Positions 18,536 to 33,115 of a stretch of DNA of 64,000 nt are shown here, piece after piece (the first letter of the stretch is position 1; every line of letters begins with the position of its first letter). Source of the stretch: Rhodothermales bacterium (lineage in GTDB: Bacteria; Bacteroidota; Rhodothermia; Rhodothermales; UBA10348); contig JANQQV010000020.1 of the NCBI GenBank assembly GCA_028284865.1, positions 372,001 through 436,000 of the forward strand, read 5' to 3'. Position numbers and translations under genes: made by a program. The notes below the pieces were generated by a model, which saw only the letters and a list, made by a program, of their open reading frames with translations, had not been told where the DNA came from and searched no databases.

Positions 18536-19588
18536 TCAGAAGTAAATGCGGAAGTCCATGGTCTGCGAGGAGTCCAGAAGATCGAACGGGACGTATGCGT
18601 AGTCAAATCCGAAGCGCACACCGGAGAGCTGCAGATCGAGGCCCGCACCATAGGACAGGTGCGAATCGACATTGTCGATGAACGCGTCCTTGTACCCCGC
18701 ACGGGCGTTGAACGTCAGCATCCGGGTCATGTACTTGAACTGAGCGCCGAAGTCACCATTGAGGTTGTTGTCGTTCGTCTGGTTGGCATCAGCCAGAATG
18801 ACCAGCTCGGTAGCGTCGGTCTTGATGACCGGGAGCGAAATCCCAAACTTGAACGACATGGGCAGATCCCACGCATCCATCTTGATGCGCGCGGGGATGC
18901 TTTCTGACGACCCGTCATGCTGCGGATCGAGATCGACCTGGATCTCAGAGTTGATGCCGCGCATCGTCATCTTCCCGCCGAAGTTCATGATGGAGGCAGC
19001 CACCTTGAGACCATTGAAGTAATCCGTCAGCAAGACGAATCCGACATCAATGGCCATCGTGCGTGCCCGCATGTCCCGAATGGACTGGCGAACAAGCTTC
19101 GTGGTACCACCAAAGTAGAAGTTCGGCGTCAGCGGCATGGCGTAGGTCAGACCCACGCTGAGGTCGGCCGCGCTGAAGGTCTCTCCCGTTCCCTCCGGGC
19201 GAGCGATCGTGCGGACCTTCATGGAGCCGTAATCGACCGAGGCGATGCTCAGACCAACTACACCGGATCCACCGGCCGGAATGGTCAATCCAGCTGTGTT
19301 GTAGGTGATGCCGGCAATCCACTCGTTGTTGGAGAACATCAGGCCACTGCGCTGGCCAGAGCGATGCGCAATGGCAGCTCCTCCCGGATTCCAGAACAGG
19401 GCGTCTGCGCCCGTTGCCGTGGCTGTGTACGCGTGACCGAGCGAAAGACCCGGTGCTCCAGCTCCAAGCGTCAGGAACGTCGCAGCCGTCGTGCCGACAC
19501 GACTCTGATCGTCACTCTGCCCCGAGTCCTGGGCATATGTCGATCCAACGAGGGCAAACAGGATCAGTAAAGAGATTGTACGTCGCAT
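18536..19588 (-). CDS. PorV/PorQ family outer-membrane protein
   Basis: FLTLGAGAPGLSLGHAYTATATGADALFWNPGGAA motif; beta-barrel pattern; next to a T9SS-sorted protein. Confidence 0.82.
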   Translation of the reverse strand: MRRTISLLILFALVGSTYAQDSGQSDDQSRVGTTAATFLTLGAGAPGLSLGHAYTATATGADALFWNPGGAAIAHRSGQRSGLMFSNNEWIAGITYNTAGLTIPAGGSGVVGLSIASVDYGSMKVRTIARPEGTGETFSAADLSVGLTYAMPLTPNFYFGGTTKLVRQSIRDMRARTMAIDVGFVLLTDYFNGLKVAASIMNFGGKMTMRGINSEIQVDLDPQHDGSSESIPARIKMDAWDLPMSFKFGISLPVIKTDATELVILADANQTNDNNLNGDFGAQFKYMTRMLTFNARAGYKDAFIDNVDSHLSYGAGLDLQLSGVRFGFDYAYVPFDLLDSSQTMDFRIYF

Positions 19589-19599
19589 GATGAGCCTCC

Positions 19600-22500
19600 C
19601 TATTTGACGACGGCAAATTTGCCGACGTGCTCGCCGATACCGGGAGCCTTGACGTGATAGATGTACACCCCGAATGCAATGTCCTGTCCTCCGCGGGTCT
19701 GAAGATCCCAGAACACAGAACCATTGTCTTCGGCCGAATTATGCTCGATCTCATCCACCAGTTCACCCCGCAGGTTGAAAATCGAGATGGTTGCCTGCTG
19801 AGGCAGGTTGATGAACTGCAAACGACGTTCGCCGCGACCGGATATCTGGCTACGCTGCTCAAAGCCGGAACCACCCACATAGGGGTTTGGCACAACGCCG
19901 ATATCATCGAGCTCTTCCTCCGCCAACTGCACGTCCACAAAGGGCTCACGCAGCGTGAACTGGAAGTAGTCGCCCGTGTGGAATTCCTTTTTTGGCGTGA
20001 TGCGCAGGACAGTCCCGGGCCCAGGGGCTGTGGGAGTAGCACCATCCGGAGTTGAGAAGGACACACGATGCCTGAACTTGCGTTGGAATCCTTCACGATC
20101 CACAACGATCAAGTCGTCCTCGACGTCGAATTCGCGGTTGTTGTTGAGATCCTGGATCAGCAGCTCGACCACCTGATTGGTGGTGGCATTCAAGGCGAAG
20201 ACCGGTACTGTTCCGTTGAGGAACCCGATTCCGAAACGCGGCAAGCGATACGTCGAATCCGCCGGGTTCACCCAGTGGACCTCGTAATCGTAAGTCGTTG
20301 GAACGTGCAGGCTGGTTGAATCAGGGCGAACATTGGCAATCCAGTTCGTCGAGACACCGTCCAGCGTTGTGGGGTCAAGGTTCACAAGCTCTGAAGCGGT
20401 GCCTGCGCTTCCCACGTAGCCCGTCTGCTCTTCGACAAACTCCAGGGCACCGGCCTGAACTTCGTAGTTCTCCACTTCGACGATGAAGCCATCCACCATC
20501 GGGGGCTCATCGATCAACGCGTTGTTGCGAACGCGAATCTCGTTGGTTGCCATGTCCACGATGTCGAATGTCGTCGTCACCTGGATATCCGCATTCGGAT
20601 TGTCGCTGTCCTCACTCTTGAAGACGACGCGGTACGGATTGTTGGCCTTGATGTCGGCTCCTGAAATGATCCGGACTCCCATGCTTCCCGCTCCGACCCC
20701 TTCAGTGATCTGGGACAGATCCTCATTGACGGTTCCATCGACGAAACCGGCAGGTTTGCTTCGAGGAACGACGATAGCCGCATTTTGGGAGACACCGAGG
20801 ACGTTCCCAGCCAGGTCCACGGAGATGTTGAAGATGTTCTCCTGTGGGTCAATTACCGGCTGACCGTCCTCCTGGATACCCCGATCGTACGCGACGAGTG
20901 CGTAGTAATACGTCATCCCGTTGCTCACGTCATCATCGACGAAGAAGAATGAAAGACCGGAGTTGTCGCCAAGGTCGTAGACGGCCTCATTTTCCAGGAC
21001 CGTCACCGGACCTGAGATGTCATTGACCAGATCCCACTGCCCGATCGGCTCCATGAACGTCGGCGTACCGTCGACATTGGTGATCGTGCGGGCATCGGTC
21101 AGCAGTGGGTTCGTTCCCTTGTAGAGGCGGTAGCCCTCGAAGTCGAACTCCTGGCTGAACCGGTCGAAGCTGGCCACGGAAGTCGTATCCCACGTGAGGA
21201 CCACACGACCATCACCCGGAATGGCCGTCAACGTCGGCAGGAATGGAGCCTGAGCAAAGTTGTAGTCCGCGTCGTAGATGCTCTGGACCGTGCGGCGATT
21301 CTTGAAAAAGTCCTGCTCATCCTCACCAAAGACCCAGGCCGTCGAGAAGAAGTCCGTACGCCCCGCAAACAGGTTGACAGGTCCCGAAACGAAGAGCAGG
21401 AAGGGCTCGATGTCCGCCTCAAAGGCATCTGCAGGCGTTCCGAGTGGGAACTGGGCGAAGTTCAGGATGCGGTCGAACATCCACGTGTCCTCGCGCAGGT
21501 TGTCCCCATTCTCGTAGAATGGACGCGATGAAAGGTCGAACCCAGTCAGACCGATCATGTCGGATTCTGCCACGTCGAGCTCATCGAAGTTGGGCTCTCC
21601 CGGATCGGGCATGCCGTTGGCTTCTCCTTCATCCGGACCCGGATAGTTCAGGTCGAACGGCCCTTTCCCATCAAGTCCAACGTCGTTGTTCACGGATTCC
21701 CCTGCATCCAGGATGCCGTTACCGTTGACATCGTCAAACGCCAACCAATCGAGGTTCTCATCACCTGTCCACCACCGGCCGGCCTTGTAGGCTCGGGTTT
21801 CGGTCAGCGGGCCGTTGACAGCCTCAAAATTGATCAGGTCGTAATTGTTGGATACGTACAGCTGGATGGCATCCTGACCTGCAATCAGCTGGCCCGGTCC
21901 ACCGAACCGCTGCTCATCGATGATGCCGTCCTCATCGTTGTCCAGACCGTCTTCAGCACGCGTCGGGCTCTCAAGGAACGCAAAACCCGTGTATCCCAGG
22001 TCATACAGCGTTCCATCCTGACGCTGACCGATTCCGTCCTGGTCCCAGCCATACGTGACATCCTCCTGGGCGTTGAATGCAGCGGTCTCATCACCTTCCT
22101 CGTTCCCCAGACCATAGTCCATGATCTGGGTGAAGAACATTCCTTCTGTACCGTCCAGGTTATAGCGATAGTCCGTCTCTGACGTGTTCGACATCCGATA
22201 GAGGATGAACATGACATCCTCAGCAAGGATGTTTGCCCACTGGAAAATGCGGACCTGAGTCTGCAGTCCCATTCCGCCGATGGTTGAATCCGATGGCGAC
22301 GGATAGAACACGCCATACTGGGAGTTCGGCTGGCCCGTGACTCGGGAGACGTGATACTCCCGGTCAGAGTAGTCATCCATTACATAGAAGCTCTCCAGGT
22401 CGGCATTGAATACACCACGGCCGAAGAATCCATTCCACTGACCACCCCAGCCCGGATCATCGGGGTTGTCGAGGCGATCTGGCCAGATTCCGGGCCAGGA

Positions 22501-23031
22501 ATCCGGATCGTCAGAAAGGGCCGGTACTGGCTCAAGAAGACCAAGCGCGTTGATTCGACGCGTGTTGTGGAAGCCGTCAAGAGGCAACCATCCCCAAAGC
22601 TCGCCGCCTGGTCCAAGACGCTTTCCAGCCTCTCGATACGTCAGGATGACCGGGTTGACGAGGCTGTCGGGAGCACCATTGTAGAATGGCCACTTTTCAC
22701 GCTCGGCCCGTACACGTCCAGCGGCCATGATGCCGACACCGTCAATGTGACGACCACCGATTCCGCGAGGCCACACTCCCCAAGGGAGGTCATTCCAGCG
22801 CGAGAGTTCTCCGTGATTGCGGAAGTTGGTCTCGATCAGGTTACCGTCGAGAATACCGCGAGCGATCATCTCTTCGCTTCCGCGATATTCGGGAGGAATC
22901 TGCGTCTGGGCAGCTGCATCCATCGCGATGATTGACATCACGAGCACGCCCGCCAGCAGCAGGGAAAGAACGGAGTGGTGAGAAGCATGTCCCACCTGAT
23001 TGCGCATCGTGCGTTTCATGAAGTTTGACAT
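19600..23031 (-). CDS. Large (1143 aa) secreted protein with C-terminal T9SS/FlgD-Ig-like sorting domain
   Basis: Signal peptide; VVPNPYVGGSGFEQR...LQFINLPQQATISIFNLRGELVDEIEHN...VYIYHVKAPGIGEHVGKFAVVK at the C-terminus; acidic Asp-rich loops (DDVNGNGILDAGE). Confidence 0.82.
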   Translation of the reverse strand: MSNFMKRTMRNQVGHASHHSVLSLLLAGVLVMSIIAMDAAAQTQIPPEYRGSEEMIARGILDGNLIETNFRNHGELSRWNDLPWGVWPRGIGGRHIDGVGIMAAGRVRAEREKWPFYNGAPDSLVNPVILTYREAGKRLGPGGELWGWLPLDGFHNTRRINALGLLEPVPALSDDPDSWPGIWPDRLDNPDDPGWGGQWNGFFGRGVFNADLESFYVMDDYSDREYHVSRVTGQPNSQYGVFYPSPSDSTIGGMGLQTQVRIFQWANILAEDVMFILYRMSNTSETDYRYNLDGTEGMFFTQIMDYGLGNEEGDETAAFNAQEDVTYGWDQDGIGQRQDGTLYDLGYTGFAFLESPTRAEDGLDNDEDGIIDEQRFGGPGQLIAGQDAIQLYVSNNYDLINFEAVNGPLTETRAYKAGRWWTGDENLDWLAFDDVNGNGILDAGESVNNDVGLDGKGPFDLNYPGPDEGEANGMPDPGEPNFDELDVAESDMIGLTGFDLSSRPFYENGDNLREDTWMFDRILNFAQFPLGTPADAFEADIEPFLLFVSGPVNLFAGRTDFFSTAWVFGEDEQDFFKNRRTVQSIYDADYNFAQAPFLPTLTAIPGDGRVVLTWDTTSVASFDRFSQEFDFEGYRLYKGTNPLLTDARTITNVDGTPTFMEPIGQWDLVNDISGPVTVLENEAVYDLGDNSGLSFFFVDDDVSNGMTYYYALVAYDRGIQEDGQPVIDPQENIFNISVDLAGNVLGVSQNAAIVVPRSKPAGFVDGTVNEDLSQITEGVGAGSMGVRIISGADIKANNPYRVVFKSEDSDNPNADIQVTTTFDIVDMATNEIRVRNNALIDEPPMVDGFIVEVENYEVQAGALEFVEEQTGYVGSAGTASELVNLDPTTLDGVSTNWIANVRPDSTSLHVPTTYDYEVHWVNPADSTYRLPRFGIGFLNGTVPVFALNATTNQVVELLIQDLNNNREFDVEDDLIVVDREGFQRKFRHRVSFSTPDGATPTAPGPGTVLRITPKKEFHTGDYFQFTLREPFVDVQLAEEELDDIGVVPNPYVGGSGFEQRSQISGRGERRLQFINLPQQATISIFNLRGELVDEIEHNSAEDNGSVFWDLQTRGGQDIAFGVYIYHVKAPGIGEHVGKFAVVK

Positions 23032-23033
23032 GC

Positions 23034-25790
23034 TTAGAATGAGTATTGGAGTCCGAGGCTGACCTGACGAGGACCGGATACCCAGTCCGGACGAGCGAAA
23101 TACTCGTCGAGGGAGTTCAGCCCTCCGATGGCAGCACCAGTAGCCCGGAATTGCTCTTTTTCGAGGGCTTCATCCCAGCTTCCCGTCGTGGCATACACCG
23201 CAAACTGGTTGGCTCGATCCCACAGATTCTGCACCTGAAGGAAGAGCTGGACATCCTGTTCGATGAATGGCGGCGTGTAGTAGGCTCGCAGGTCCGTCCA
23301 GAATTGAACGGGGCGATTGGCATTGTTCGGGCGCGTTGATCGCACGAAGCCGCGGACTGTCGTGTACGGCTCACCGGAACGCAGCCTGTTGACCATCGTC
23401 AGCGAAAGTCCTTCAATTGGAGCGATCGTGACGGTGCTGTTGAACACGTGGCGTCGATCCCAATTCAAGCGAACCAATGACAAGATCGGCTCCAGACCTG
23501 ACTGGGCGCGCCCAAAGGCTTCACCCGGGTCAGAAGACGTTCCCTCTGCAAACTGCAGGGTGTAATCAAATGTCCAGGAGAGCATTCCGCCCGGACGATC
23601 GAACATCGAGAACGTGAAGCCGCGGATCGTTCCGAAGTCGCGGTTGATCCACTGCACGACCTGGTCACCGGTTGGCGTCCGATCGATCTCCTGCCCCGTC
23701 AGATTGCGGACGTCCTTGGAGAAAATGGTGAGTTCCATTCCAATATCATCCGAGAGTCCCTGCTGCAGCCCCACTTCGAATGCGAGGGTACGCTCCGGCT
23801 CGAGCGCTGCGTTGCCGAACTGCACGCTGCTGGCCTGCGGATTGACCTCGTACTCTGGATTGGTGTAGAGCAATGCAAGGGCAGGAATCTGGAAGAAGAG
23901 TCCTGCGGAGAAGCGCATCACCCCTGTCGATGAGATCGGGAAGGCGATTCCGATGCGTGGGCTGAGCTGCATGTCCGGATCCGGCTTCACGCGGTTCGAG
24001 ATTGAATCCTGGGATGCAGGATCGAAAATGCGCTCCTGCTCTGCCTGGCGCCATTCGACTGGCACATCAAAGTTCGAATTGAAATAGTCGAAGCGCAGAC
24101 CGGCGTTCACGATCAATCCAGTGAACTCCATTTTGTCCTGGATGTAGGCGGCGAACTCGGTCGGCGTGGCATCCAGTCGGTTGTCGGCGAAACGGTCAGG
24201 CGAGATGGCAGGCTGATTTCCCGTGCGGGCCGAACGCTCGATACCGAATGAGCGGTTCTGCAATTTGTGCAGACGCGTCATGACCCCACCTTTCACGAGG
24301 TGACGTTTGTTGATCTGACTCGTGAAATCAGTCAGTATCGTGTGGGTGATCGTCAGCTGATCATCCGTGAACAGATCGTTCCCTCCAACATCGAACGCAT
24401 TCTGGCCGTCCAGATTGCGTTTCTGGGGCCACTGGTAGCGAGGATCCGTCGGGTCTTCGAACAGATAGTTGTCCCACTTGTCACGAAGCAGGCTGTAGGA
24501 AAGCTGTCCGAATGATTTGGTCCCAACTGTGTAGCGAAGAGCAGCGATGTGCGTCTGGCTGCCATAGTAGCCCGTGTTCAATCCACCAGGCACGTATTTG
24601 GCATCGTGACTGTACGGGCTTGTCTTGCCGTCCTGCCAGAACAGGTTGTATTCGAAACGGGTGTTGCCTGAAAGTCGGGCCGTCAGACCCGTATTGATGG
24701 AAAGGCGCTGATTGGTGCCCATGGACACGAAATCACCGTCTCCATTCGATTCAATATTCCACTCGGCGGAGTCGCGTCCGGTGTTCAGACCTACCGATGA
24801 GTCGGCTGGCGCAAAGAGACGGCGGCCAAACTGATTACCATTGTCGTCCAGCCAGCGGGTCGTGACCTGAAGCCCGACCTTTTCATTCAGGAGCGGGCCA
24901 CCAAACGAGAACTGGACATCTGTCAGATTCCGCATGGGAGCCAGCTCGTTGTAGGTATACGTGTCCGAAACGAAATCAGAAGCGCGCAGGTTGTCGCCAG
25001 GACCGGTCGTCCGATTCATGAACTCAAGTTCGCGATCAGAAACAAGCGATCCGGCATACGCCAGTACGTTTCCTGACCATGAATCGGGAATATCTTTGGT
25101 GACGATGTTTACGACTCCAGACTGGGCCTGCCCGTACTCCGCGTTGAAGACCCCGCTGATGACCTGCAGGTTCGAGACCATGTTCTGCTCGATTTCGAAG
25201 GAGGCCTGATTGTTGAATGCGTTGTTGATCGGAATACCGTTGATCAGGTAGGCCACCTCGCCGGAACGCCCACCGCGGAAACGACCATCCACGACACCCG
25301 CCTGCAGGTTGATGGCATCGTTGATTCCCAACACAGGAAGGGCTTCAAGCTGCTCCTCTCCCACGACAGCAGTTGTCGTGGTTCTGTCCGTCTGCACGAT
25401 GGGGCGCTCAGCCGTGACGACAATCTCCTCCCCTTCCAGAATCTCCTCTCCAAGACGGAAGTCGACGCGCGTCGTCTGGTCGATGATCACCTCGATGTTC
25501 TCGATGAGCTGGGTCTGGAACCCGATGAATTGGGCCCTCACGGCATAGGTACCCGGACGAACGCGGATGATCACGTACTCCCCGTCCATGTCTGTAGCCG
25601 TTCCCTGGGTAGTGCCGTCGATGACCACGTTGACGCCTGGCAAAGGGTCTCCAGTGGCGGCGTCCACTACGCGCCCAGCAATTTTTCCGTAGATGGCGGC
25701 ATCCTCCTCAGAGGGACTTGCTGTTGCCGTGAATCCGGTGCCAAGCAAGAGGAATAGCAGGGCGCCGAGAAGGGGTGACTTTGAAACCAT
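23034..25790 (-). CDS. TonB-dependent receptor with carboxypeptidase-regulatory-like domain
   Basis: GKIAGRVVDAATGDPLPGVNVVIDGTTQGTATDMDGEYVIIRVRPGTY...; plug domain; C-terminal GPRQVSLGLQYSF. Confidence 0.92.
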   Translation of the reverse strand: MVSKSPLLGALLFLLLGTGFTATASPSEEDAAIYGKIAGRVVDAATGDPLPGVNVVIDGTTQGTATDMDGEYVIIRVRPGTYAVRAQFIGFQTQLIENIEVIIDQTTRVDFRLGEEILEGEEIVVTAERPIVQTDRTTTTAVVGEEQLEALPVLGINDAINLQAGVVDGRFRGGRSGEVAYLINGIPINNAFNNQASFEIEQNMVSNLQVISGVFNAEYGQAQSGVVNIVTKDIPDSWSGNVLAYAGSLVSDRELEFMNRTTGPGDNLRASDFVSDTYTYNELAPMRNLTDVQFSFGGPLLNEKVGLQVTTRWLDDNGNQFGRRLFAPADSSVGLNTGRDSAEWNIESNGDGDFVSMGTNQRLSINTGLTARLSGNTRFEYNLFWQDGKTSPYSHDAKYVPGGLNTGYYGSQTHIAALRYTVGTKSFGQLSYSLLRDKWDNYLFEDPTDPRYQWPQKRNLDGQNAFDVGGNDLFTDDQLTITHTILTDFTSQINKRHLVKGGVMTRLHKLQNRSFGIERSARTGNQPAISPDRFADNRLDATPTEFAAYIQDKMEFTGLIVNAGLRFDYFNSNFDVPVEWRQAEQERIFDPASQDSISNRVKPDPDMQLSPRIGIAFPISSTGVMRFSAGLFFQIPALALLYTNPEYEVNPQASSVQFGNAALEPERTLAFEVGLQQGLSDDIGMELTIFSKDVRNLTGQEIDRTPTGDQVVQWINRDFGTIRGFTFSMFDRPGGMLSWTFDYTLQFAEGTSSDPGEAFGRAQSGLEPILSLVRLNWDRRHVFNSTVTIAPIEGLSLTMVNRLRSGEPYTTVRGFVRSTRPNNANRPVQFWTDLRAYYTPPFIEQDVQLFLQVQNLWDRANQFAVYATTGSWDEALEKEQFRATGAAIGGLNSLDEYFARPDWVSGPRQVSLGLQYSF

Positions 25791-25827
25791 GGGATCCGGG
25801 GATTCCAGTTGAAAAGAACCGTCAACG

Positions 25828-25861
25828 ACGCGGGGCCTGCCTGAGAAGGCTGGCCCCGCGT
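25828..25861 (-). other. Strong intercistronic hairpin
   Basis: ACGCGGGGCC-A-GCCT-TCTC-AGGC-A-GGCCCCGCGT (minus strand): 14-bp stem with one A/A mismatch, no adjoining U tract. Confidence 0.65.
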
Positions 25862-25886
25862 ACACTCGACGGAATGTGCGATGTGC

Positions 25887-28127
25887 TTACTTCAGCAGCA
25901 TCATGGTCCGCGTCTGGGTGAATTCACCTCCAGCCTGCAGACGATAGATGTACATACCGGAGGTCAGCTGCGACGCGTCAAACGTGACAGCGTGCGTGCC
26001 GGCCGGCATGGTACGTCCGTTGACCAGCGTGGCAACACGCTGTCCAAGCACATTGTAAACGTCCAGGCGAACGTCCGAGGCGTTCGGGATGGAGAATTCA
26101 ATGTTCGTGCTCGGGTTGAACGGGTTCGGGTAGTTCTGCTCAAGGGCGAACTCATATGGAAGAGCCGAATTGGCCTCTTCGATATCCGTAGCCGTCACAG
26201 CCGTACCAGCGATCGCGACAGGCTGCCAGGTCGACGGGTTGTTCCAAGCGCCCGGGCCGCCAAAGAGCGTCCAGTTGACCTGGGCTTCACGTCCACCACC
26301 AGCGTCCCGATCTCCCAGGGCGAGGTTGAATGGAATGACCTTGAGAGCGTCGCTTGCTGGGACAGCAAGTGGCTGGTCAGTCGTCGGATCCAATACGGAT
26401 TCCAGCGGAATGGCGACGAGGAAACGATAGCCAGTGGCCGTTTTCTCAGCAGCTCCACCAGCACCCTGAACAGGACCGGATGCCGTCGAGCCCGTGGCAC
26501 CAGCCGGATCAGCGTGAGACCAGATTCCGATACCCAGAACGTTGCCCGCTTCGTCAGCTTCCACCGCCATGCGGATCTGGAAGTCAGCGGTGTTTCCGCG
26601 GCCATACTGGCCATTCGGAGAGCGATTCAGCAAACCGCCACCGGGGACTTCGCGAACATCGTAGTTACCGAAGAAGATTTCGAACGAGTCGAAATTCCAG
26701 GTGCCTGCGCCGTCGGCGTTGGCGCCAGGGAAACCAGCAACGTCATCTGTGACTTCTGCATAGACATACAGGAATCCGAATTCGTCGATGGCCACTTTGG
26801 CCATGGCCGAGATATCGGCGGCCGCACCGTCACCAGTCGGTGCTGGAGCATCACCCGATGTCCAGTGATCAGGGGTGATCATGAACGGCGCGTTGCCCGG
26901 GAATCCATCGTCGGAAATCGTGCCAGAGGCGACGTTATCGAAGATGGTCGTCGACTGCGCTTCCGTCAACACGCGAATGAACGGTGCTTCCGGGAGGTTC
27001 GGGTTGGCCACTTCACCTGAAGAACCGCCCACAAACGTGTTTTCAACGCCGAAGAGGCTCTTGGAGGTCACCGCGTAGTAGAACGGATCACCCGCCAGGG
27101 AAACGTGTGGCAGCTCAACCTGGTGGTCGATGGAAAACTCTGTGTCGTTGAACGATTTCGAGCCAATCAATGAGACGCTTCCAGCCAGAATATCCTGCGA
27201 TGTAATCGGGCTCTCGGAGGCGTAAACGTTGTATCCACCAAAATCAGGATTTGGCGTCCAGCTGATCGTGTTGACATCGCCGTTGGCAGCAAATGACGCG
27301 CCACTCATGGCAATAGGGCCCTGTGTGGCCACCGACACGTCGGTGTTTGGACCACCGATGTAAACGTCGTCGAGGTAGATCGGGCCGCCACCGGTGTTGT
27401 TGTCAAAGAAGACCGTCAGGCTGTAGACACCGTCCCACTGGAATTCTTCGAAACAGGCGTCACCGTTGCACTCGCCTGGGCCCCAAACGCCGAATCCACC
27501 AACGGACCAGGCACCGCCGTATGTCCACTGGGCTGCGTTGTCATCCAGCGGAGTCGCGAGGGCATTACCGTTGATGTCCTTGCCGACTTTGGCAGAGTCG
27601 AGTCCAGCGACAGTCGTCGGCGGCAGCGGAATGGCCAGATCGTGCCACTGTCCGTTGCGCATGGCTTCTGGAATGGTCCAATTGAGACGGGACTGGAGAT
27701 CAGCCGTGCCATCGTTGGCCGGGCTGTCATCCGTTTTGTCGAACATGGTGATCCAGACACCTGGCTGACCCGCATTGGCAGGGTCAACGAGAAGCTTCAT
27801 GTAGAGCGTGTCTCCTTCCCCAGCACTCATGCCCACGTTCTGGGACATGTCAATGCCTTCCGACTTCGAGAACCGGTAGCCGTTCTCCGACCAGTTACCG
27901 TAGTCGTACTTGTGGACACGGTTGCCAGAAGTCGGATCCAGGGGATCAAGGACGATGGGAGCCGAGGCTTCAGGAATGAGGACGTTAGGTCCGTCGAAGA
28001 AGAAAATGAAATCGTCGCCGAGCTCAGTCATGCCGCTCTGGGCTGATGCCGGGACCGCAATCATAGCGGTCAGGAGAAGCATCATGAACGGCAGCACAGC
28101 GACGCGCGTGGTAGCACTCGTGTTCAT
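25887..28127 (-). CDS. Secreted CBM9-like protein with T9SS type A sorting domain
   Basis: Signal peptide MLLLTAMIAVPASAQ; CBM9-like region; C-terminus YEFALEQNYPNPFNPSTNIEFSIPNASDVRLDVYNVLGQRVATLVNGRTMPAGTHAVTFDASQLTSGMYIYRLQ. Confidence 0.85.
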   Translation of the reverse strand: MNTSATTRVAVLPFMMLLLTAMIAVPASAQSGMTELGDDFIFFFDGPNVLIPEASAPIVLDPLDPTSGNRVHKYDYGNWSENGYRFSKSEGIDMSQNVGMSAGEGDTLYMKLLVDPANAGQPGVWITMFDKTDDSPANDGTADLQSRLNWTIPEAMRNGQWHDLAIPLPPTTVAGLDSAKVGKDINGNALATPLDDNAAQWTYGGAWSVGGFGVWGPGECNGDACFEEFQWDGVYSLTVFFDNNTGGGPIYLDDVYIGGPNTDVSVATQGPIAMSGASFAANGDVNTISWTPNPDFGGYNVYASESPITSQDILAGSVSLIGSKSFNDTEFSIDHQVELPHVSLAGDPFYYAVTSKSLFGVENTFVGGSSGEVANPNLPEAPFIRVLTEAQSTTIFDNVASGTISDDGFPGNAPFMITPDHWTSGDAPAPTGDGAAADISAMAKVAIDEFGFLYVYAEVTDDVAGFPGANADGAGTWNFDSFEIFFGNYDVREVPGGGLLNRSPNGQYGRGNTADFQIRMAVEADEAGNVLGIGIWSHADPAGATGSTASGPVQGAGGAAEKTATGYRFLVAIPLESVLDPTTDQPLAVPASDALKVIPFNLALGDRDAGGGREAQVNWTLFGGPGAWNNPSTWQPVAIAGTAVTATDIEEANSALPYEFALEQNYPNPFNPSTNIEFSIPNASDVRLDVYNVLGQRVATLVNGRTMPAGTHAVTFDASQLTSGMYIYRLQAGGEFTQTRTMMLLK

Positions 28128-28187
28128 TGCATTGCTTGATGGTTAGTTGTGGAGTACGGGTCCGGCAGGGGTTCAACCGGCCCCTCC

Positions 28188-28201
28188 TGAAAACCTTTTC
28201 A
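28188..28201. promoter_or_regulatory. Predicted LacI-family operator
   Basis: TGAAAACCTTTTCA, 60 bp upstream of the 28127 start codon. Confidence 0.75.
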
Positions 28202-28230
28202 CGATGAAGGTATTAACGCCCTCTCATAAA

Positions 28231-28244
28231 TGAAAACGTTTTCA
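28231..28244. promoter_or_regulatory. Predicted LacI-family operator (perfect palindrome with central CpG)
   Basis: TGAAAACGTTTTCA. Confidence 0.8.
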
Positions 28245-28278
28245 GGCCATTTTCAGTTTTCAGATCGTCAGATTTTCG

Positions 28279-30156
28279 TCAGCGCAACGGGACGCCGTCG
28301 CCAACCCGGATTACGGGCCGGGAAATGGTCCCTGTATCTGTTTGTACTACAAGGAAATACATGCCCGGTGAAAGTCTGGTTGGCAAGTCCAGTCGGATGG
28401 TATCACCCTCGCGTCCGAGGGAATCGAATTCACGATTCATGACCTCCCTTCCCATGACATCAACGAGTCTCACCGTCGCCGGATGATAGGCTTCACTTCC
28501 CAGTTCTACTAGCAGTCGATCGGTGAACGGATTTGGGTAGACTGAACGCATCAGATTGACGCGTTCCGGATGCGTCTCCGTGGAGGTCGATGTTCCCAGT
28601 TGGAGCTCATATCGATTGATGTACACCCCGAAGCTCCTGTACCCGATTCGCAACGTCCGGATACCCTCTTCCAACCAAACACCGTCCAGGACTGCGTTCC
28701 GGAAGAATGTTGTCGAATTGGTAGACGAGTAGGCCAACTCCTCTCCCCAATCCTGTCCATCGATGGCCAGGGTAAGCGAGCCATCCCGGGTCGCCGCCAG
28801 GCGTGCGATGAGGCGATAGGTTCCGCTCTCCGTCACGTTCACGGTGTATTCCGTCCACTCACGCAGGGTCACATTTTCCACGTTGTATCCCCCGCCGATA
28901 TCGGCAGAGACGCCTATGTCCACTCCCTCATCTGCTCGTAGCGCTCCGACCGTATTCAATGGGGTCAGTTCGAGGTAGGCTACACCGGGACCACCAAGAT
29001 CATAGTATTCCGCTTCAAATTGACCGGGGATATCCGGCGCTTCCATCAGATAGGGAGCCTGACCACATGTATCTCCGACCTGGATATGAAGGGTGTCCGA
29101 TTGTGCGGTCCATCCATCCTCGTCCAATGCATCAGCGCGGAGTTCATAGCAACCTGGATGCACGTTTTCGAGCGACAGGTCGATGGAAGGACCACTTCCC
29201 ATGGCAAGCAGACCGTCACCCTGATACAAAGCCAGAGAAGCGATTTCGGATACCGGATCGGTGGCTGTTGCCGTCAGGCTTACTGATTCACCGACATCAT
29301 ATTGCGTCTGCTCTCCTGCTGAAGCCACCGAGACAGACGGAGGGCCATGGGCGTCGGCATAAACCCGTACGTAGTCAACCTCGAAGCTCGTTGGAAAGTC
29401 ATTCGGCTCAACGCCTTGAGCACCACCCCACGTTCCACCGACCGCCAGGTTCAGGATCAAGTGAAACGGTTTGTCGAATGGCCAGCGGGTCCAGTTCGAA
29501 AGCCCTCGTTCGTACACCAGATTGACGTTGCCATCAACGTAGGTCGTAATACGCGTGGGCGTCCATTCCAGCGCGTAGACATGAAAGTCGGAGCGCGAGG
29601 TCGCGTTCATGAAAGTTGACGCCGGGTTATTGTTCAGCTGGTGATTGAGTGCATTCATGTGAACGGCCGAATGGGTCCGGTCCGGCTCATGGCCGACTCC
29701 TTCCATGATGTCAATCTCGCCGTTGTCCGGCCACCCTCCGTCTCCGTAGTTACTCTCGGATGGCATCATCCAGATGGCTGGCCAGGTACCCAATCCTTCC
29801 GGAAGGCGTGCTCGCACCTCAAAACGACCGTACAACCAATCTCCTTTGCCCAATGTCCTCAGCCGGGCCGAGGTGTAGGGTGCTCCTGCAAATGATTCAG
29901 GGCGCGCCTCAATGATGAGCACACCATTCTCGATACGAGCATTCTCGGGGCGAGCGTCGGTGTAGTATTGGAGTTCTTGATTCCCCCATCCCCCACCACC
30001 AACTTGATAGGACCATTTGGTCTCATCGGGTTGGGTACCGGAGTCGAATTCATCACTCCAGACCAATTGCCAGTCCTGGGCGTGCGCGGACATACCAAGC
30101 AGCACGCATGTCAGACCCGCAATCAACCTTTTCACTCTGTTCGACCTCGTCATCAC
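28279..30156 (-). CDS. GH16 beta-glucanase (laminarinase-like) with CBM6-like module and T9SS sorting domain
   Basis: WSDEFDSGTQPDETKWSYQVGGGGWGNQELQYY; catalytic GEIDIMEGVGHEP; CBM6-like GGYNVENVTLREWTEYTVNVTESGTYRL; C-terminal MRSVYPNPFTDRLLVEL. Confidence 0.93.
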   Translation of the reverse strand: MMTRSNRVKRLIAGLTCVLLGMSAHAQDWQLVWSDEFDSGTQPDETKWSYQVGGGGWGNQELQYYTDARPENARIENGVLIIEARPESFAGAPYTSARLRTLGKGDWLYGRFEVRARLPEGLGTWPAIWMMPSESNYGDGGWPDNGEIDIMEGVGHEPDRTHSAVHMNALNHQLNNNPASTFMNATSRSDFHVYALEWTPTRITTYVDGNVNLVYERGLSNWTRWPFDKPFHLILNLAVGGTWGGAQGVEPNDFPTSFEVDYVRVYADAHGPPSVSVASAGEQTQYDVGESVSLTATATDPVSEIASLALYQGDGLLAMGSGPSIDLSLENVHPGCYELRADALDEDGWTAQSDTLHIQVGDTCGQAPYLMEAPDIPGQFEAEYYDLGGPGVAYLELTPLNTVGALRADEGVDIGVSADIGGGYNVENVTLREWTEYTVNVTESGTYRLIARLAATRDGSLTLAIDGQDWGEELAYSSTNSTTFFRNAVLDGVWLEEGIRTLRIGYRSFGVYINRYELQLGTSTSTETHPERVNLMRSVYPNPFTDRLLVELGSEAYHPATVRLVDVMGREVMNREFDSLGREGDTIRLDLPTRLSPGMYFLVVQTDTGTISRPVIRVGDGVPLR

Positions 30157-30225: not shown

Positions 30226-31224
30226 TCAGGAGGACGCACGGATGCGAAGCTCCACCGGCAGTTCGCTGGCATAGCTTTGCAGAACGTCGTCGCTTTCATT
30301 GGCGATGACCGCTTCAAGAAGCTTGACCGATCGCCGTCCCAGCTCCCGAATCGGAACGTGAACAGTGGTTAACGGCGGGAACGTGAATGCCGAACTGGGA
30401 ATGTTGTCAAACCCGGTCAGCGATACATCTTCTGGAATCCTCAGCCCGGCGTCGCGAATCGCACTCAAAGCGCCGACAGCCGCATCATCATTCGATGTCA
30501 TGATGGCCGAAGGCGGCTCAGGCAAACCCAATAGGTATTTGGTGCCATCGTACCCGGCCTGCTGGGTGAACTCACCCTCGAAAATCAAGTCCTCATTGAC
30601 AGGAATGCCTGAGACACGCAGTGCTTCCAGGAACCCTCTGAACCGTTCCTGAGCGTCATAAGCATCGCGCGGACCCGTTATGAATCCGATTTTGGAATGT
30701 CCCGAAGCGATCAGATGTTCAGCCATCTGTCGCATTCCGCCAAAATTGTCGAATGAAATGGTCGGCACTCTCTTACCCTCGGACCGGGTGTTGAGGAATA
30801 CCAATGGGATCCCGCTGGGCGCGCGGTCCAGTACGGATTCCACGGTGAGCACGGGAGCCATGACCAGAATGCCGTCCACTCTACGGTACATTCCTTTCAA
30901 AGCAGCTTCCAATTCGTCAGACGAGTTGTGCGAGGACGAAATCAAAAGCATCCGGCCGTCCTCTTGAGCTGCGCTGTCTATGCCATTCAGCAATTCGGCA
31001 TAGAAGTCTCCGGATACATAGGGCAGTAGAATACCGATGGCCCCTGTTTGCCTGGAGTGCAAACTCTGTGCAGCCGGGTTGGGCGTGTACCCCAGCTCTG
31101 CCGCCGCCTCCAGCACACGTTCACGTTTGTCCGCGCGAACGTTGCAGGTGTCGTTGAGTACACGGGAAACCGTCGAAATCGATACCTTTGCTCGCTCTGC
31201 TACGTCCCGTATCGTTGCTCCCAT
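30226..31224 (-). CDS. LacI family transcriptional regulator
   Basis: MGATIRDVAERAKVSISTVSRVLNDTCNVRADKRERVLEAAAELGYTPNPAAQSL LacI HTH plus periplasmic-binding-like effector domain. Confidence 0.96.
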   Translation of the reverse strand: MGATIRDVAERAKVSISTVSRVLNDTCNVRADKRERVLEAAAELGYTPNPAAQSLHSRQTGAIGILLPYVSGDFYAELLNGIDSAAQEDGRMLLISSSHNSSDELEAALKGMYRRVDGILVMAPVLTVESVLDRAPSGIPLVFLNTRSEGKRVPTISFDNFGGMRQMAEHLIASGHSKIGFITGPRDAYDAQERFRGFLEALRVSGIPVNEDLIFEGEFTQQAGYDGTKYLLGLPEPPSAIMTSNDDAAVGALSAIRDAGLRIPEDVSLTGFDNIPSSAFTFPPLTTVHVPIRELGRRSVKLLEAVIANESDDVLQSYASELPVELRIRASS

Positions 31225-31264
31225 CGTACCTCGTCATTGAGGCGGTTTCGCAACCGCATCATGC

Positions 31265-31286
31265 ATTCTGAAAACCTTTTCAGAAT
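31265..31286. promoter_or_regulatory. Predicted LacI-family operator in lacI/SGNH divergent intergenic region
   Basis: ATTCTGAAAACCTTTTCAGAAT, 10-bp inverted arms around CC. Confidence 0.78.
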
Positions 31287-31315
31287 GATACACTCTTGGC
31301 ATTTTGAACGCAAGC

Positions 31316-33115
31316 ATGCCCAAATCGTCCAAAGAACGGGTTTTCACCGTTCTGCTTGTTCTCATCCCCGTCTTTCTGCTTCTTGCTCTGGAGATGGGTC
31401 TTCGGCTGTCCGGTTTCGCCGAATCGCGACGTAGTGCGCTCAAGCCGATCGATGGTGAACCGGGATGGGTCGGGCTCAACCCAGAATATCCGGGCCGGTA
31501 TTTCAGAGGCTTTCTTCCGGCAGTGGCTTTCACTCCATTTCGCGAAGTCAAGCCGGACAACAGTGTTCGCGTGGTAGTCCTCGGTGGGTCTTCGACTGCC
31601 GGATTCCCTTATCAATGGTACCAAGGCTTCCCTTCGGGCTTGGAACGACGATTGACGGACCAGTATGCAGGCCGCCCGGTCGAGGTCATCAATCTGGGGA
31701 TGACGGCTGTCAACAGTTACACACTCTGGGACCTGGGGCGTCATGTTATCGACATGGACCCCGACCTGGTCGTCATCTACGCTGGCCACAACGAATTCTA
31801 TGGCGCATACGGTGCGGGCACCACGGCAGCGTGGTATCCGAAGTCCGCGTGGTTTGGACGCATGTTGCTGACGCTGAAACGGTCGGCCATCGTCATGGGT
31901 ATCGAGCGCATCCTCTTCGGGCCGCCTGACTATGGCCTGGACGCAGATCCGAACGAGCGCACTTTGATGGCCCGCGTGGTGCAGGACGCGGGAATCGTAC
32001 TCGATGAGGATGTCTATTCCGCGGGAATCGCCCAGTTCGAATCCAACATGGAGCGGGTCCTGTCTTCCTATCAGGAAAACGGCATTCCGGTTGTGGTCGG
32101 CACTCTCGTCGCCAACCTCTCCGAACAGCATCCGCTCTCGCAGACAGTCGACGCTGTAGAGGCATTCGAAGCAGGCCGCCAGGCTCTTCAGGATGGGGAC
32201 GTGGAAGAGGCACGAATTCGATTCATCGAGGCGCGGGACCTGGATCAGATACGATTTCGAGCCTCAACCGATATCAACGACATCATTCGGTCCTGGTCTG
32301 GTCGAGACGGCGTTTCGGTTGTAGACCTTGAGCCTGCATTTGAGGAGGCATCCACAACAGGAATCCCTGGATACGATTTGTTCACGGATCACCTCCACCC
32401 CACCGCGCGCGGATATGATTTGATTGCGGAGGAGCTTACTCCATCGGCGGTTGCGGCTCTCGAACAACGAGGGATTCGCCCCCGACCGCTGAATCTGGAA
32501 TGGGACTCGACCATTCTGTTGGACGGCCTGTCGGAATCGGAGGCGGGGATTCTGATCGACCGCCTCCTGTCAGACTATCCGTTCAATCTGGACGACGAAC
32601 CGGGGGCGGCCACATCCAGATACCAGGAACTGATGGACGCTCGGCGTCAGTCCGGCAGCATCTCAGATTCCCTTGCCATCAGTGTGATGACAACGGATAT
32701 GCCCACACAAAACGCCCTTCTGGAGGGTGCGCGTCTGTACGAGTCCTCAGGCGACTCCCTGCAAGCCCTGCAATACTACCATTCGCTCTTCTATTGGCAG
32801 CCCTTCAATGCCACCTTGATGGAAGAGGTCATCGGGAGATACCTGACGGCTCCTACATGGGATGCCGTAACGGAAAAGCTGGCTTTGTACGGCGCCGCCC
32901 GATCAGATCAGCTGTACTTCTGGAACGCACTCGCGGTAACGCAGATACGCCAGGAGCGTTGGGAGTCAGCAGCCGTCGCCCTTCAACAGGCTGAGCGTCT
33001 TGATGACCGGTCGCCGGTCATGCTATACAACCGTGCTCGCCTGGAATTGGCCCAGGGCGATACGCTCGCCGCACGCTCCACGTTGGAAGCTTACCGCTCT
33101 GCCACGCAGAACTAA
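31316..33115 (+). CDS. Membrane-anchored SGNH/GDSL hydrolase with C-terminal TPR-like region
   Basis: VVVLGGSSTAGFPYQW, VIYAGHNEFYGAYG, DLFTDHLHPTARGYDLIAEEL (SGNH blocks); C-terminal helical repeats. Confidence 0.83.
   Translation: MPKSSKERVFTVLLVLIPVFLLLALEMGLRLSGFAESRRSALKPIDGEPGWVGLNPEYPGRYFRGFLPAVAFTPFREVKPDNSVRVVVLGGSSTAGFPYQWYQGFPSGLERRLTDQYAGRPVEVINLGMTAVNSYTLWDLGRHVIDMDPDLVVIYAGHNEFYGAYGAGTTAAWYPKSAWFGRMLLTLKRSAIVMGIERILFGPPDYGLDADPNERTLMARVVQDAGIVLDEDVYSAGIAQFESNMERVLSSYQENGIPVVVGTLVANLSEQHPLSQTVDAVEAFEAGRQALQDGDVEEARIRFIEARDLDQIRFRASTDINDIIRSWSGRDGVSVVDLEPAFEEASTTGIPGYDLFTDHLHPTARGYDLIAEELTPSAVAALEQRGIRPRPLNLEWDSTILLDGLSESEAGILIDRLLSDYPFNLDDEPGAATSRYQELMDARRQSGSISDSLAISVMTTDMPTQNALLEGARLYESSGDSLQALQYYHSLFYWQPFNATLMEEVIGRYLTAPTWDAVTEKLALYGAARSDQLYFWNALAVTQIRQERWESAAVALQQAERLDDRSPVMLYNRARLELAQGDTLAARSTLEAYRSATQN

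Follow-up and report, generated by a model that had tools for sequence, protein, structure and literature searches.

Predicted operators of a LacI-type repressor of laminarin-type genes bracket the promoter of a CBM9-TonB receptor operon in Rhodothermales

LacI-type regulators have been surveyed extensively. Among 1303 regulators, even palindromes are the rule and CG centres are found in 1173; autoregulation applies to 72%, more than one site is present ahead of about 20% of the operons, and the intersite distances peak at 13, 22 and 32 bp (PMC4052901). The Bacteroidetes are not mentioned in the text of that survey. In the order Rhodothermales, the available sections of PMC6987092 describe the xylan locus Rmar_1067-1081 of Rhodothermus marinus, which is headed by a LacI gene, and report no operator for it. 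The gene clusters around GH149 enzymes contain GH16, a TonB receptor and a PF13347 transporter, and some of the proteobacterial clusters also carry a LacI gene (PMC5827456). In the literature searched, no laminarin or beta-1,3-glucan regulon of Rhodothermales was found.

The window, i.e., the whole stretch of 64,000 nucleotides analysed here, had been predicted to contain two LacI-type operators whose centres lie 43 bp apart, within the 151-bp gap upstream of a CBM9/TonB operon. Re-reading of the sequence located both palindromes at 28188-28201 and 28231-28244 (O1 and O2, Table 1), at that distance and inside that gap, which spans 28128-28278 between the GH16 and CBM9 genes. The claimed perfection of O2 (7/7 pairs) and the presence of TACCTTCA on the minus strand between the two palindromes (28212-28205) could likewise be reproduced. 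A third place for the motif in the window, O3 (31269-31282), had not been noted before. It forms the core of a longer, near-perfect palindrome of 24 bp, CATTCTGAAAACCTTTTCAGAATG (11/12 pairs). The central CG that had been expected is present in two of the four sites of this genome; the other two, and most sites of the family, have a CC/GG centre instead, so that the fixed central CG of the classical even LacI palindrome is not found.

Table 1. Positions of the predicted operators, promoter elements and genes in the window
Feature	Position	Strand	Remarks
Operator O1, TGAAAACCTTTTCA	28188..28201		6/7 pairs palindromic; operator on the downstream side of the CBM9 promoter, covering the expected start region; orthologous sites
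Operator O2, TGAAAACGTTTTCA	28231..28244		7/7 pairs; upstream operator of the CBM9 promoter; orthologous sites
Operator O3, TGAAAACCTTTTCA	31269..31282		44 bp upstream of the lacI start codon; conserved at the promoters of lacI orthologues
TACCTTCA, conserved TAnnTT (-10/-7 type) box of the CBM9 promoter	28205..28212	-	18 bp from O2, 11 bp before O1
TTTTCA arm of O2, candidate embedded -35 element	28231..28236	-	inferred from the fixed distance of 18-19 bp to the TAnnTT box
TATCAT, -10 type box of the lacI promoter	31285..31290	-	abuts O3
TTGCGT, -35 type box of the lacI promoter	31308..31313	-	17 bp spacer
LacI-family regulator, 332 aa	30226..31224	-	PF00356 and PF13377
Laminarinase-like GH16 enzyme; has a CBM6 and a type IX sorting tail	28279..30156	-	closest solved protein is laminarinase 3iln (323 bits)
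CBM9-domain protein with type IX sorting tail	25887..28127	-	opens the O1/O2 operon
TonB-dependent receptor, SusC-like N-terminal part	23034..25865	-	
1143-aa conserved operon protein, family unknown	19600..23031	-	kept downstream of the receptor in relatives
PorV/PorQ family outer-membrane protein	18536..19588	-	NF033709 142.6 bits, cut-off 90

A genome-wide scan for the motif, which had been suggested as a check on the original prediction, left the operator reading unrefuted: four exact sites were found, none of them random. The exact motif TGAAAACSTTTTCA occurs at these four places in a genome of 3.48 Mb (28 contigs), where 0.014 would be expected from base composition (Poisson probability of at least four, about 2e-9). 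With up to two mismatches allowed, 6 strand-matches at 3 places are found in the window; shuffled sequences gave an expectation of 0.39, and none of them reached 6. The reversed pattern has 0 exact matches across all 27 family genomes. Freeing the central two bases (TGAAAANNTTTTCA) does not add any place in the genome itself, which means that every two-arm occurrence at that spacing has either a CC/GG or a CG centre. On the genome scale, the two-mismatch scan returned 47 strand-matches versus 17 for the control; this was too noisy and the regulon was therefore not extended with such sites. A one-mismatch site at C23:101978 was set aside, as it lies inside a kinase reading frame. Another one, TGAAAGCGTTTTCA (C23:199704; L006:1501-1514), is intergenic and located about 120 bp ahead of a gene for a small secreted protein. 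It may belong to another LacI paralogue and is kept outside the claimed regulon.

Two of the four exact sites lie on either side of the promoter of the CBM9-TonB receptor operon and one is located at lacI. The remote fourth site (C23:3149) is found on the same contig, 397 kb away, directly ahead of a gene for a GPH-type sugar symporter that is followed by a GH149 gene. The latter encodes a beta-1,3-glucan phosphorylase of 1158 aa, scoring 1501.7 bits with NF058639 (equivalog cut-off 1150) and 1029 bits with 6hq6. Few palindromic operators at functionally linked genes, as in a local LacI regulon, are thus observed: all four exact places belong to lacI or to beta-1,3-glucan genes. Because the target genes comprise a laminarinase, the receptor, the GPH transporter and the GH149 enzyme, the sites appear to mark one pathway. 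This would run from an extracellular laminarinase via outer-membrane uptake and inner-membrane transport to the phosphorolysis of beta-1,3-glucan, the substrate being suggested by the enzyme families. In relatives, further sites are located near GH3, GH16, GH94-type, sodium-symporter and MFS genes, which fits this beta-1,3-glucan theme.

The GH16 gene is probably co-transcribed with lacI, and the PorV/PorQ gene likely belongs to the same operon as the CBM9 and receptor genes. The 1143-aa protein, for which the profile search returned no Pfam match, is encoded directly after the receptor gene in relatives as well, with identities of up to 88%. Divergent from lacI, a GDSL/SGNH-hydrolase-like gene (31304-33115) shares the intergenic stretch of O3 and keeps its position next to lacI in many relatives; it may also be under the control of O3. 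The lacI leader additionally contains a hairpin-forming inverted repeat, GCGGTTTCGCAACCGC (31242-31257), between O3 and the start codon.

The site is conserved at the orthologous lacI and CBM9 promoters, and at the transporter promoters of four species. By placement rather than by expression, the location of O3 in the lacI promoter and its conservation in orthologues point to autoregulation. Across 78 genomes of the order, 24 of the 26 with a LacI orthologue (E<=1e-85) also contain the exact site, compared to 9 of the 52 without one (Fisher p 1.1e-10, a value inflated by the relatedness of the genomes, which are not independent, although the pattern spans many genera). Some exceptions limit the reach of the motif outside the family. 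In G059 (L056, G059:C110), lacI, CBM9 and the receptor are kept and no site within 2 mismatches was found; the operator may have changed or been lost there. The sole site of G011 lies inside a reading frame, and that of G014 in an open frame whose coding status is uncertain. In LacI relatives at a greater distance (E about 1e-70 to 1e-80), the site is often missing.

The protein encoded at 30226-31224 has the domains of the LacI family (PF00356, 67.2 bits, cut-off 27; PF13377, 121.6 bits, cut-off 26.5). Most of the orthologues that have retained the site share its recognition stretch, VSISTVSRVLN, unchanged; L050, L057 and L060 differ from it at one or two positions. The genome also encodes two further paralogues with a LacI-type HTH, on contigs C22 and C17. 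Beside the C22 gene there is a perfect palindrome, TGTAAGCGCTTACA (L063:7750-7763), that differs from the motif of O1-O3, and the variants TGTAAGCGCTTTCA and TGGAAGCGGTTCCA (L063 3508 and 3419, C22) are found near a TonB-receptor gene. This suggests that there is a second LacI regulon, separate from the present one and with an operator of its own. No palindrome was found adjacent to the C17 gene.

For the promoter between O1 and O2, a comparison was made among 14 homologous operator pairs, whose centres are 43 (three pairs), 44 (two), 46 (three), 48 (three), 58 (two) or 60 bp (one) apart. In 11/11 short pairs, the TAnnTT box starts 18-19 bp after the upstream operator, and its distance to the downstream operator varies from 11 to 15 bp. 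The fixed spacing on the upstream side fits a role of the TTTTCA arm of the operator as the -35 element. A strict sigma-70 scan of the CBM9 promoter did not find a promoter, and its assignment therefore rests on conservation. The three long pairs have a separate TTGAnC-N17-TAAnnT between the operators. At the lacI and transporter promoters, TTGnnn-N17-TAnnnT ends directly at the single operator in 16/16 cases, which places the operator over the start region, in a blocking position. What is constant across the pairs is the promoter sandwiched between two operators. We tentatively propose, leaning slightly towards doubt, that in the short-spaced genomes the right arm of the upstream operator (TTTTCA) serves as the -35 element, repressor and polymerase competing for the same bases, and that a sister genus uses a separate TTGAnC -35 element, its upstream operator lying another 10-17 bp outwards. 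If true, two promoter architectures would share one conserved sandwiched-promoter logic, in which helical phase is irrelevant.

The original prediction had placed both operators on the same face of the DNA, about four turns apart. Two dimers on one face could then bind cooperatively, or a tetramer could loop the 43 bp of DNA between them. Indeed, 43 bp corresponds to 4.1 turns, both here and in two congeners, and cooperative LacI-family pairs at 22 and 32 bp are known (PMC4052901). The same-face claim does not hold, however, when the homologous pairs are considered: from 43 to 60 bp, they range from 4.10 to 5.71 helical turns without a conserved whole-turn spacing. With a phase drift of up to half a turn among the 14 pairs, helical phase is not the constraint, and the constant part is the distance from operator to promoter box. 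As for looping, the protein aligns end to end with the 332 residues of CcpA, so that nothing is left over for a tetramerisation tail like that of E. coli LacI. Helical phasing in either form is thus considered improbable.

The similarity to CcpA, the closest solved protein, also raises the question of whether a global catabolite regulator, rather than a pathway-specific one, uses the sites, all the more as CcpA sites have a similar palindromic form. The score of 194 bits with the NCBIfam CcpA equivalog is far from its cut-off of 442, and there are just four exact sites, all at one pathway or at lacI, so that this explanation is very unlikely. We give equally little credence to the idea that O1-O3-type sites are bound by some other protein, for instance either of the LacI paralogues encoded in the genome: the site tracks the promoter of this lacI gene itself and the lacI orthologues, and the palindrome adjacent to the C22 paralogue is a different one. 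The location in an AT-rich stretch between two co-directional genes might finally be thought to reflect chance or a transcription terminator. This is hardly credible at all, given the rarity and conservation found in the genome scans and the identical 14-mer ahead of lacI and the transporter. The terminator reading was rejected, as the palindromes do not have a terminator-like structure.

It is thus very probable that O1 and O2 are operators of the LacI protein, that this protein is a local repressor controlling its own gene and the use of beta-1,3-glucan (laminarin-type), and that its sites bracket the promoter. That the two palindromes are LacI-type operators for the neighbouring regulator, as originally proposed, is strongly supported by the autoregulatory placement, the conservation at orthologous promoters, the order-wide co-occurrence and the targets of the four exact sites. 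Judged from sequence, they are almost certainly docking sites of this predicted repressor. The sites, with their rarity and conservation, the geometry of the promoters and the content of genes are direct results of the sequence comparison. From these data we infer binding by the 30226-31224 protein and repression rather than activation; the inducer and the operon structure are predicted in the same way. Without inducer, one repressor dimer on O1 and another on O2 would bracket the promoter of the CBM9-TonB receptor operon. The -35 region would be covered at O2 and the start region at O1, and RNA polymerase could therefore not bind or leave; steric blocking is the likely mechanism. O3 would block the lacI(-GH16) promoter, resulting in negative autoregulation of lacI and probably of GH16 too, and the fourth site would do the same for the distant transporter-phosphorylase genes. 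An inducing sugar, most likely a laminari-oligosaccharide (beta-1,3-gluco-oligosaccharide) or glucose derived from it, would then free all sites.

This provides a predicted operator, regulator and regulon for the use of beta-1,3-glucan in Rhodothermales, and it connects a transporter-GH149 unit located far away with the laminarinase cluster. It also illustrates that a near-whole-turn spacing should not be read as cooperative binding before the relatives have been checked.

Compared to described systems, the regulon resembles the surveyed local LacI sugar regulons in several respects: the palindrome is even, the regulator is predicted to control its own gene, the sites are few and lie ahead of start codons, some operons have tandem sites, and the targets come from one sugar pathway. 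It differs from them in the mixed centre (CC/GG or CG) and in the wider pairs, which span 43-60 bp where the survey has its peaks at 13, 22 and 32 bp (PMC4052901). As far as the available sections of PMC6987092 show, Rmar_1067-1081 is similar in that a LacI gene adjoins extracellular glycanases and a TonB receptor in the same bacterial order. That locus, however, contains xylan instead of beta-1,3-glucan genes, as well as a SusCD pair and sigma/anti-sigma genes. The combination of GH149 with GH16, a TonB receptor and a PF13347 transporter is shared with the known GH149 clusters (PMC5827456), whereas here GH149 and the transporter are 397 kb away from lacI and tied to it by the shared operator. 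BglR from Thermotoga maritima likewise controls an operon with laminarinase, beta-glucosidase and transporter, its binding being affected by cellobiose and glucose, but it belongs to the ROK family and not to LacI: a similar job done by an unrelated protein (PMC3750489). From CcpA, the regulator is set apart by its score and its small regulon. Mixed centre and wider spacing aside, the sequence evidence thus describes what appears to be an ordinary and well-supported local sugar regulon of a known type.
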